DNA of 40,606 nucleotides from a virus: positions 1-40,606 of the IMG/VR virus record IMGVR_UViG_3300020185_000107; one strand, 5' to 3'. Below, piece after piece: positions 27,426-30,891 of the stretch. The notes under the pieces were generated by a model. It was not told the DNA's origin, made no database searches, and worked only from the letters and a program-made list of their open reading frames with translations. A program made the translations under genes and the position numbers. Within the stretch, counting starts at the first letter, position 1. Each line of letters opens with the position of its first letter.

Positions 27426-28007
27426 ATGAGCAATTTATTTAAAACCGTAGAACAAGAAGCATTTCGTGCTGGTATTACACCGCGCACTAGGCAGTCTCGT
27501 GACTGGTTCCGCAGAAAAGTGTCGAATATGTCGGTAAATAGGCGCAGTTTAATGCGTGAAGAAGAAATTATTTTACGTAACCGTGGTGGTGTAGGCGGGA
27601 TGTATATGTTTTTCTATGATCCAAAGACAAAAGATAAACTTCCTTATTGGGATAACTTTCCTTTAATCATTTTTGTCGAAGGAACCAAAGGCGGTTTCTA
27701 TGGTTTGAATCTTCATTATCTTCCTATGACATTGAGAGCAAAATTTTTAGATGGATTAATGGATCAGACTAATAATAATAAATTTGACGAATCGACAAGG
27801 TTCGACATTACATATTCTTATTTAAAATCCGCAGCAAAAACAAAGTATTTCAAACCGTGTTTTAAAAAGTATCTTACCTCTCATGTCGAAGGTCGATTAG
27901 CAATGGTACCCGCGCCAGAATGGGAAATAGCAACGTTCTTACCAACACAAAGTTTTAGTCGCGCAAGTCAGAGTACGGTTTGGGCAGATTCGAGGGAAAT
28001 GATATGA
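27426..28007 (+). CDS. Conserved T4-like virion-region protein, unknown function
   Basis: 193 residues from ATG 27426. That start is preferred because it follows the gp4 stop by 4 nt; an in-frame ATG at 27399 would overlap gp4. Recognisable segments are RQSRDWFRRKV, GMYMFFYDPKTKDKLPYWD, and GGFYGLNLHYLP. I recall such proteins beside gp4 and gp19 in marine T4-like phages, but no function. It is basic at the N-terminus with no membrane segment. It overlaps the tail-tube gene by 4 bp (ATGA). Confidence 0.8.
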   Translation: MSNLFKTVEQEAFRAGITPRTRQSRDWFRRKVSNMSVNRRSLMREEEIILRNRGGVGGMYMFFYDPKTKDKLPYWDNFPLIIFVEGTKGGFYGLNLHYLPMTLRAKFLDGLMDQTNNNKFDESTRFDITYSYLKSAAKTKYFKPCFKKYLTSHVEGRLAMVPAPEWEIATFLPTQSFSRASQSTVWADSREMI

Positions 28008-28723
28008 CATATAGTGTCGATAAGTTTCAAGCGGAAGTTATAGGTCGTGGTGGTCCAGCACTATCTAATTTGTGGAAAGTTACCTTACCGTCACTGGGGG
28101 TATACGATACTAAAAGTATTGATTTGATTTGCAGGTCTACGGGAACACCCGGAAGAAACATTAATCAAACAGAATTAACAATAGGAATGAGCAGAAAACA
28201 AATTGCTAACGGTTATGGAATTACTCCGATTCCTATGACATTTCTGGTGTTAAACGACCCATACATTTTAGAATATTTTGAAGTATGGCAAAATCTTTGT
28301 ATCAATCAACAAACTTATGAAGTCGGTTATTATTCGGAGTATACTTTTCCAGTAAAAATCGATATTCTAAAAAAAGGACTTGCCTTTCCATTATACAAAA
28401 AAGATTTCAATGTTCCGTTACCGACTGCAATTAAAAATCGTCTTCCAACTATTGGACCGATAAACTTTGCACAAGGACAAATAGATCTTAATATCTTGAC
28501 AGACGATAAAATTGTTTATCAATACGAATTAATAGAAGCATACCCATCTGCCTTTACGGGTATGTCATTAACCAACGATCCTAACTCGAATTTACTCGAA
28601 CTAAACGTCGAGTTTTCGTATAGGGATTGGAGATCAGCAGCACTTAGTGAAAAAGGCGAAAACATTTTCGGTGAAATTGTAGACAACCTCACCGGTGGAC
28701 TATTTGATAAATTAGGATTTTAA
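28004..28723 (+). CDS. gp19: Tail tube protein gp19
   Basis: 239 residues from ATG 28004, chosen for the ATGA overlap and the GAGGG about 9 nt upstream rather than the in-frame ATG at 27980. Family features include the early LPSLGVYD, CRSTGTPGRNI and YGITPIPMTFLVLNDP, with a C-terminal beta sandwich strand pair (LLELNVEFSYRDW). gp19 hexamers stack to form the inner tube. It is longer than T4 gp19 (163), as is common in marine relatives. Confidence 0.85.
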   Translation: MTYSVDKFQAEVIGRGGPALSNLWKVTLPSLGVYDTKSIDLICRSTGTPGRNINQTELTIGMSRKQIANGYGITPIPMTFLVLNDPYILEYFEVWQNLCINQQTYEVGYYSEYTFPVKIDILKKGLAFPLYKKDFNVPLPTAIKNRLPTIGPINFAQGQIDLNILTDDKIVYQYELIEAYPSAFTGMSLTNDPNSNLLELNVEFSYRDWRSAALSEKGENIFGEIVDNLTGGLFDKLGF

Positions 28724-28725
28724 TA

Positions 28726-29436
28726 ATGGCGTTACCAAAACTGAATGATGTACCCAAGTTTAATATAACAATACCATCAACTGGTAAAAAAGTTCGTTTC
28801 AGACCTTACTTAGTTAAGGAAGAAAAGGTTTTATTAATGGCGGTTGAATCAGGAGATACCGGAGCAGCAATTGATGCAATGGTCGATACGATTGAATCGT
28901 GTATAACTGAGAAAATTAACGTAAGCGAACTTACCACATTTGATGTTGAGTATCTGTTCACGCAGATCAGATCTAAGTCTTCGGGCGAGTCTGTTAAATT
29001 GGGGTTAAAATGTAAAGGGTGCGAGGTTCCGAATGAAACGGAAGTTAAACTCGACGATCTAAAAATTAAAATGCCTAAAATAAAGAAAACAGTAGAATTG
29101 AATGAAGATGTGTCTATCGAGTTAAGATATCCACCGTTTAGCGTATTGACAAAATATGATTTTGCAGATGATACGATTTCTGATGCTGTTAGGTCTTTTC
29201 AGTTAGCTGGCGAATGCATTCAAGCAGTACTCTTTGATGACGAAAGAACCGATAACGAAGATATTACAAATGAAGAAATGCAAGAGTTTTTAGAATCAAT
29301 GACAACCGAACAATTTAAAGTGGTGTCTTCGTTTGTTGAATCTATGCCTAAACTTTCGCACACAATAAAATTTAAATGTGTTAGTTGTGATCATGACAAT
29401 TCAATAGTATTGGAGGGAATGCAAAGTTTTTTTTAG
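28726..29436 (+). CDS. gp26: gp26-like baseplate hub/tail assembly chaperone
   Basis: 236 residues. The T4_baseplate (gp26) family is indicated by KVRFRPYLVKEEKVLLMA near residue 22-39 and by two CxxC pairs (C96/C99 and C218/C221) that could form a zinc ribbon. It lies between the tail tube gene and the tape-measure candidate, the site of lambda-type tail assembly chaperones. It ends CAA AGT TTT TTT TAG, a T TTT TTT slippery heptamer directly before the stop, with an open -1 frame beyond. T4 itself has gene 51 after gene 26. Confidence 0.85.
   Translation: MALPKLNDVPKFNITIPSTGKKVRFRPYLVKEEKVLLMAVESGDTGAAIDAMVDTIESCITEKINVSELTTFDVEYLFTQIRSKSSGESVKLGLKCKGCEVPNETEVKLDDLKIKMPKIKKTVELNEDVSIELRYPPFSVLTKYDFADDTISDAVRSFQLAGECIQAVLFDDERTDNEDITNEEMQEFLESMTTEQFKVVSSFVESMPKLSHTIKFKCVSCDHDNSIVLEGMQSFF
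29427..29433 (+). promoter_or_regulatory. Slippery heptamer T TTT TTT (-1 frameshift site)
   Basis: A run of eight T (29427-29434) provides the canonical X XXY YYZ heptamer in the correct register of the gp26-like frame, followed immediately by TAG. Slow termination at the stop would favour slippage to the -1 frame. Downstream only a weak possible hairpin (TCAC...GTGA, loop 9) is seen. Confidence 0.7.
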
Positions 29437-29618
29437 TATCCCTTTCTCACGATAATTTAGTGAATCATTATAAGACAAATTTCGAGTTAATGTATGCTGA
29501 CAAATACACGTTAACAGAACTGGACCAAATGATACCTTGGGAAAGGGAAATTTACATAACAATGCTTACTCAACGAATTAAAGAAGAAAACGAGAAGAGA
29601 AAAAATGGCAATCGATAG
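29433..29618 (+). CDS. gp26 frameshift extension (GT-like), or small gp51-like ORF
   Basis: The -1 frame after the slippery site stays open for 61 codons. It includes SLSHDNLVNHYKTNFELMY, then LTELDQMIPWEREIYITMLT and a charged helical tail. Joined to gp26 it would give a 297-residue protein. A separate start is possible at ATG 29490 (42 residues) or GTG 29460, but neither has a good ribosome-binding site, and both would drop the coherent sequence upstream. The end overlaps the tape-measure start by 14 nt. Position and mechanism parallel lambda G/GT; T4 gene 51 is the positional counterpart. Confidence 0.75.
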   Translation, partial: LVSLSHDNLVNHYKTNFELMYADKYTLTELDQMIPWEREIYITMLTQRIKEENEKRKNGNR

Positions 29619-30891
29619 CGCAATTGCAAGTATGGGTTCATCCAACGCTGGTATGGTGTTAGCAGACATCAATACTTGGAGCGAAATCCAAGCAGAGTAC
29701 TCTGAGAAGTCTACCGAATATCTTTCGAGTATCAACGATACCTTGTTAGAAATTTGGGTTGGAATAACAGATTATTTTGAAGGGATGGAAAAAAAGTCAG
29801 CATTTGCTGCTGGCGAAGCGACTGATCCAGGTGACCTGGTGGGCGGTGGACCCAGCACACCAACCGCAAAGGAAGGTAGTGATGCATTCTCTCTTGTAGA
29901 TTTCTTTAAAGCACTTGCAGCAGCACTTGCAGGTTTTGTAGGTACAATTCTTCCCGCAATCATTGCATCATTAAGTTTATCAAATATGGGGTTCACCGGT
30001 TTAGAATTCAAAGCATTAGATAAAATTAAAGGATTCTTTTCAGGAAAATGGTGGACTGAGAAAGTAGATAAGTTAGCAAAAATATTTCGGGAAAACAAAG
30101 CAGTAATCGCAATCAAAGAGTTTTTCGAAGGTGGTAAGATTCAAAAAGTTTTCACCAATGCGATGAAAAATATTAAAATGTTCTTTTCACTAGAAGGTGA
30201 TGGAATCATAGGAAAAATCTTTCGGGGTATCAAGGGTATGGGAGGTAAGATTGTCGCGGTGATGGGTAAGATTTTTTACCCTATCAGTTTGTTGATGTCT
30301 GCTTTCGATGGGTTCATGGTAGCATCAGAGGATTTCAAAGAAAACGAAAGTGTTGTTTCTGCTGGGGTCAATTTTATAACAGGGTTCTTTGCTTCTTTTA
30401 TAGGCACGTTTGCAGACATGATCAAAGACGGTATCATGTGGTTGATAGCAAAGATGTTTGGTATTGAAATGGACGATGAGGGTAACTTTGATAAATCTAA
30501 AAATCCGATTATGGCAGCAATCGATAATGCTTCATTTGCAGATGCTATCTTAGATATCGGTGCGAAATTTAGTGAGTTCTGGTCTAGCATAACGGATTCT
30601 TTTTTCGAATGGTGGGAAAACTTTTCTTTCATGGATTTTATCAGTGGTGATGCTAGTGCTGACGATTTCAAAATGAGTAACGGAAAAACTTACGGTAAAA
30701 GAGAAGACCAAACGGAACAATTAACTGATGCTGCTGCGGAAAATGTTGCTGGTAAAGGAGGCGGTGGTGTGGTCCAAATAAACGCACCCCAAAATTCTAG
30801 TACCACGACTAATGCAAATCAATCTGTATTAGTCGGAGCAACCGCATCTGCTGGTAATCCTATTTGGAAACCCAAACGTAGTCGTGGATAA
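29605..30891 (+). CDS. Putative tail tape measure protein (gp29 analogue)
   Basis: 428 residues. Residues about 95-130 and 225-290 are hydrophobic and probably helical, including GTILPAIIASLSL and PISLLMSAFDGF, and much of the rest is Lys/Phe-rich helix. The C-terminus (from about 380) is Gly/Asn/Gln-rich and flexible. Tape measures have such hydrophobic segments and follow the chaperone genes, as here. It is shorter than T4 gp29 (590); a fully helical chain at 1.5 angstrom per residue would span at most about 64 nm. It could instead be another hub protein. Confidence 0.65.
   Translation: MAIDSAIASMGSSNAGMVLADINTWSEIQAEYSEKSTEYLSSINDTLLEIWVGITDYFEGMEKKSAFAAGEATDPGDLVGGGPSTPTAKEGSDAFSLVDFFKALAAALAGFVGTILPAIIASLSLSNMGFTGLEFKALDKIKGFFSGKWWTEKVDKLAKIFRENKAVIAIKEFFEGGKIQKVFTNAMKNIKMFFSLEGDGIIGKIFRGIKGMGGKIVAVMGKIFYPISLLMSAFDGFMVASEDFKENESVVSAGVNFITGFFASFIGTFADMIKDGIMWLIAKMFGIEMDDEGNFDKSKNPIMAAIDNASFADAILDIGAKFSEFWSSITDSFFEWWENFSFMDFISGDASADDFKMSNGKTYGKREDQTEQLTDAAAENVAGKGGGGVVQINAPQNSSTTTNANQSVLVGATASAGNPIWKPKRSRG

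Follow-up and report, generated by a model that had tools for sequence, protein, structure and literature searches.

A predicted programmed −1 frameshift joining gp26- and gp51-type tail assembly chaperone domains in an uncultivated marine T4-like phage lineage

Introduction

Frameshifting reportedly occurs in several groups of T4-like phages, and genes 26 and 51 of T4 itself are said to be separate genes for a short and a long form. A 2016 review had described G-T frameshifting as conserved 'except T4' (PMC5009743). The study of Vladimirov, Gautam & Davidson (2022, Virology 566:9-15) is cited in PMC12846349 as a source on poly-T slippery sequences in the TAC-N genes of T4-like phages, and in PMC10885494 with regard to some T4-like phages whose short and long genes are separate. 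As far as it is represented in those two citing papers, that work concerns the same gene families, and the same short and long forms, as the locus described here.

Comparable systems are known from other phages and from bacteria. In the G/GT system of lambda and other long-tailed phages, the gene located just past a tail-tube gene undergoes a −1 shift at its end, so that a minority of the product carries a C-terminal extension (Xu, Hendrix & Duda 2004). The TAC locus of the Vandenendeviridae and Andersonviridae, exemplified by phage Adele, has a conserved −1 extension and a T-rich site at the end of TAC-N (PMC12846349). In dnaX of E. coli, the slippery heptamer is preceded by a Shine-Dalgarno (SD)-like element ∼10 nt upstream; a spacing of 8-11 nt is reported to stimulate −1 shifting (PMC6321510). 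In the same organism, U_UUU_UUU is far less shifty than A_AAA_AAG (PMC5009743).

Here, we describe a locus in IMG/VR virus record IMGVR_UViG_3300020185_000107, of which positions 1 to 40,606 were analysed (the window, 40,606 nt; all features are on the plus strand). The locus is very probably a new, uncultivated example of this known type of frameshifted chaperone. The original prediction, made from the window alone, had presented frameshifting in a T4-type gp26 gene as undescribed; this was mistaken, as the general idea had already been published, according to the citations in PMC12846349 and PMC10885494. The value added here lies in breadth, in codon-level evidence and in a candidate upstream stimulator. 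With respect to the T4-like systems cited above, the window belongs to an uncultivated marine lineage with the stop codon placed directly after the heptamer. It shares with lambda the position and the predicted outcome of the shift, but its T TTT TTN heptamer is not that of lambda, its gp26 is larger and has no clear sequence kinship, and the binding of partners is proposed by analogy only. Phage Adele, by contrast, carries a GTTTTT motif in place of the complete T TTT TTN heptamer and belongs to different phage families. Finally, the window resembles dnaX in its upstream element but differs in that no conserved 3′ stem-loop was found and in that shifting would yield the long product, whereas in dnaX it yields the short one.

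Results

The gp26-type gene spans positions 28726-29436 and encodes a zero-frame product of 236 aa, a putative short tail assembly chaperone (TAC-N). The protein matched PF12322 with 200.9 bits against a curated cut-off of 24.5, over profile positions 2-218 of 219, and phrog_150 (5e-63). No second PF12322 match was present in the 40.6 kb record; the record may be a fragment. As originally described, the gene ends in T TTT TTT TAG, its last codons being TTG GAG GGA ATG CAA AGT TTT TTT TAG. The slippery heptamer T TTT TTT, the predicted shift site, occupies 29427-29433 and is abutted by the zero-frame stop codon TAG (29434-29436); the run of eight T residues extends from 29427 to 29434. The window contains 63 stop-to-stop ORFs with 100 codons or more; gp26 is the only one of them in which T TTT TTN occurs in frame no more than four codons from the stop.

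An open −1 frame spans 29397-29618. From the heptamer, it continues for 61 codons, the length originally given, and a stop (29433-29618) through a gp51-type C-terminal domain (TAC-C), such that a −1 slip at the heptamer is predicted to yield a GT-like product, TAC-NC, of 236 + 61 = 297 aa. The extension matched phrog_634, 'baseplate hub assembly catalyst', with 87 bits over profile positions 54-115 of 121 and is therefore real coding sequence, in agreement with its earlier description as protein-like. In profile alignments, it aligned with residues 200-244 of T4 gp51.

The AlphaFold model of gp26 (mean pLDDT 90.9) matched models of viral gp26 proteins, with E values as low as 1e-16 against named baseplate hub subunits. 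Its top PDB match by probability (0.69) was the HK97 tail assembly chaperone, 2ob9_A, with a TM score of 0.50 on the target and 4.1 Å over 90 columns; the E value of 1.2 is not significant alone, and the resemblance of the modelled fold to the HK97 chaperone is suggestive only. The C-terminal domain was modelled as helical (pLDDT 82.8). A fold search with this 63-aa domain yielded no match, and searching solved structures by sequence yielded chance-level matches only.

Upstream of gp26 lies a gene for a tail-tube family protein (27980-28723; phrog_45, 3.4e-28). Downstream, an ORF of 428 aa (29605-30891) overlaps the −1 ORF by 14 nt. Its product has long hydrophobic stretches and is a candidate tape measure or tail-interior protein; neither PHROG nor Pfam gave a convincing match for it (lowest phrog E value 0.053). 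In the annotation of phage Cr30, the tape measure is located just beyond the chaperone locus. That the 428-aa protein is a divergent tape measure is plausible but unproven. Thus, of the predicted setting between tail tube and tape measure, the former neighbour was identified and the latter is a plausible assignment.

We then compared the end of the window gp26 gene with those of its relatives, comprising GenBank phage isolates and two sets of 80 viral-contig loci. The contig loci were found using N-terminal gp26 motifs, which introduces no bias towards the gene end. Scanning viral contigs with the window gp26 as a single protein found no relatives, and an alignment of nine sequences was too divergent for scanning; closer alignments retrieved the relatives. 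Of 153 distinct junctions, 148, including the window, end in T TTT TTN. The third codon position varies among these (109 TTC, 33 TTT, 5 TTA and 1 TTG), and in all 148 the −1 frame runs into the gp51 domain. The remaining five junctions are those of T4, three Ackermannviridae-type phages and locus L133. The last was considered as an exception to the heptamer rule and rejected: its heptamer and −1 extension are intact, and the zero-frame stop is merely displaced downstream, lengthening gp26 by about ten codons. Six further loci with short flanks also carry the heptamer. The alignment of gp26 ends that had been suggested with the original prediction therefore returned the heptamer in all 148 full-flank relatives and in seven partial or displaced-stop cases; outside T4 and the Ackermannviridae, none of the ∼155 relatives lacks it.

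This conservation exceeds that expected from the encoded amino acids. Clustering at 70% protein identity gave 54 clusters; with amino acids fixed and the codon usage of the gene body, the probability of NNT TTT in all 54 is ∼1e-16 (log10 P = −16). As a control, internal Phe-Phe pairs of the same genes, mostly encoded by TTC TTT, were in a heptamer context in 1 of 112 instances. Two layouts occur among the 148 junctions: a direct one in which the stop abuts the heptamer (31, including the window) and a spaced one in which it follows one codon later (117). On a maximum-likelihood tree, the layout changed about nine times, at least seven of these changes being forced by well-supported branches, and the heptamer was constant throughout. 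The stop thus moved while the heptamer stayed, indicating that it is the heptamer, and not the position of the gene end, that is conserved. Judged from these sequence comparisons, the junction pattern is neither chance nor sequencing error.

Separate initiation of gp51 was evaluated from the available start codons. In the window, the −1 frame contains no start 5′ of the heptamer; the first candidates are a GTG at 29460 (SD energy +0.3) and an ATG at 29490 (−2.5), as compared to −3.7 for the gp26 start. The earlier remark that the −1 part lacks a good start is thereby borne out. In all but one of the 31 direct loci, no ATG occurs in the −1 frame upstream of +50, and in the window and the direct class the first one falls ∼20 codons inside the conserved domain. 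The SD energy at this ATG averaged approximately −0.1 in the direct loci and was never −6 or lower, versus a mean of −5.71 and 55% at gp26 starts. The −1 frame stretch that precedes the first ATG displays coding-type conservation, with pairwise differences of 0.35, 0.25 and 0.55 at the three codon positions. In 11 of the 31 direct loci, a −1 frame stop lies immediately 5′ of the heptamer; in these, the change of frame is therefore confined to the heptamer.

These data bear on the possibility that the gp51 part forms a gene of its own, whose translation would begin by re-initiation or at an internal start such as GTG 29460 or ATG 29490, with the T run incidental. GenBank records annotate gp51 alone, from an internal start in S-RIM8 and from an ATG just past the stop in P-SSM2, and 77 of the 117 spaced loci, many of them from cyanophages, have an in-frame ATG 2 nt after the stop. 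The SD energy at that ATG (mean −1.39) is, however, no better than random (−1.47). Moreover, separate initiation leaves unexplained both the invariant T TTT TTN and the fused form of T4 gp51, and, in the direct class, the candidate starts sit inside a domain whose 5′ part is conserved as −1 coding sequence. We consider this explanation very improbable overall, and it was rejected for the class of the window, which has no start near the beginning of the domain and no SD. Nevertheless, independent initiation of gp51 may coexist with slippage in many cyanophages of the spaced class.

Transcriptional slippage, in which the T8 run changes the number of U residues in the mRNA and thereby generates fusion-coding transcripts, is equally improbable. 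Poly-T can cause RNA polymerase to slip, with runs of 9 A or T cited (PMC5009743), and the window has eight consecutive T residues; by contrast, 109 of the 148 relatives have T TTT TTC, with only 6 T, in the same architecture, for which reason this explanation was rejected. In addition, the phase of the heptamer with respect to the zero frame is invariant, a property of consequence for ribosomes but not for RNA polymerase. Least probable, to the point of being negligible, is that the gene truly has a single frame, obscured by decay or by a sequencing or assembly indel among the T residues. The window is an IMG/VR virus record and homopolymers are error-prone, but the same stop and −1 continuation are present in the isolates S-RIM8, P-SSM2, Cr30, ValKK3, DLP_6 and RHph_N34 and in more than 130 other contigs, many with 6 T, and no in-frame gp26-gp51 fusion at this junction was found among the relatives compared. 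An error of this kind cannot recur in independent contigs, and it was rejected on the basis of the recurrence of the pattern in isolates.

The sequence around the heptamer includes candidate stimulators of ribosomal frameshifting. GGAGGG at 29412-29417 is the strongest SD-like site in the gp26 gene (duplex energy −9.8), unequalled in 224 windows of the gene body, and its spacing of 9 nt from the heptamer is within the 8-11 nt range. We therefore regard it as a candidate 5′ stimulator. Across the relatives, the SD-like energy was lower than upon synonymous resampling in the spaced (−7.31 versus −5.04) and direct (−4.80 versus −4.10) layouts, a comparison in which shared ancestry partly remains. 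Using one sequence per cluster, which reduces shared ancestry but does not remove it, the energy was −5.50 versus −4.44 for resampled sequences (sd 0.17). None of ten control windows had a comparable SD excess. TAG is also over-represented as the gp26 stop, occurring in 30 of 54 cluster representatives versus 22 of 161 other long ORFs of the same loci; this excess may help slippage or may merely reflect coding constraint in the −1 frame. According to RNAalifold, there is no conserved 3′ stem-loop in either layout. The 3′ folding z-score of the window was ∼0, indicating no significant structure, and a mild folding tendency was seen in the spaced class only (mean z −1.4 to −2.0).

Discussion

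The comparative evidence supports the prediction of a programmed frameshift joining the gp26 and gp51 domains, and we consider it highly probable that −1 ribosomal frameshifting yields TAC-N and TAC-NC tail assembly chaperones from this locus. In the proposed mechanism, the majority of ribosomes would terminate at the TAG at 29434, releasing gp26. In a fraction, the Phe-tRNAs that occupy the P and A sites, paired with TTT TTT, would slip back by one base on T TTT TTT, and the slipped ribosomes would read through the gp51 domain to produce TAC-NC. The anatomy of the locus, its conservation, the lack of starts and the homologies are observed, whereas the slip and its rate are inferences. The slip would probably be aided by pairing of GGAGGG with the 16S rRNA, and perhaps also by the abutting stop codon. 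Two observations speak against the mechanism: the low shiftiness of U_UUU_UUU relative to A_AAA_AAG in E. coli (PMC5009743), and the absence of significant or conserved 3′ structure at the window. If the two forms act as G and GT do in lambda, the tape measure might be coated by many copies of the short form and few of the long one, which would also recruit subunits of the tail tube; this is the presumed chaperone function.

More tentatively, and with somewhat more doubt than confidence, we suggest that the shift could depend on a minimal signal: an internal SD ∼9 nt upstream, T TTT TTN and, 0-1 codon further on, a stop codon with a preference for TAG, without conserved 3′ structure. Such a signal would have been kept across the marine T4-like radiation while the stop drifted; its SD and TAG parts may be undescribed.

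In most marine T4-like phages, including cyanophages, the neighbouring gp26 and gp51 annotations very probably represent the two parts of a single frameshifted chaperone. Many gp51 entries in databases, some of which start inside the domain, would therefore be incomplete. In S-RIM8 (L003 1962-2099) and other cyanophage records, the public gp51 annotation begins within the conserved domain and omits the start of that domain. Annotations of this type should probably be replaced by a joined frameshift product.

The window displays a one-gene arrangement, with a heptamer and a −1 extension; in T4, two separate genes correspond to it. T4 gene 26 ends in TTC TTT GAG TTA CTA TAA, without a slippery heptamer. 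T4 gp51 (249 aa) spans phrog_150 nearly end to end as well as phrog_634, and its profile alignments cover both gp26 (E 2.4e-5) and the −1 domain (E 6.9e-5); T4 gp26 and gp51 share weak BLAST similarity (2e-6). On the basis of these matches, T4 has one gene for the short form and a second, encoded in one frame, for the long form. The proposal that T4 genes 26 and 51 are the counterparts of G and GT accordingly stands with respect to short and long forms, but not with respect to slippage, which T4 does not use here.

In the three Ackermannviridae-type phages (L011, L012 and L013), the −1 frame enters a gp51-like domain and there is no canonical heptamer. Their gp26 genes end in CTT TTC, GTT TTT and ATT TTC, followed by one codon and TAA. 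Phage Marshall (L013) is also without a start codon for the gp51-like part. These phages possibly use a weaker or different slip site, akin to the GTTTTT of phage Adele.

The gp26 protein of the window also contains two CxxC pairs (CKGC and CVSC), zinc-knuckle-like in appearance. CxxC pairs occur in T4 gp26 and gp51 as well (CPEC and CPKC).
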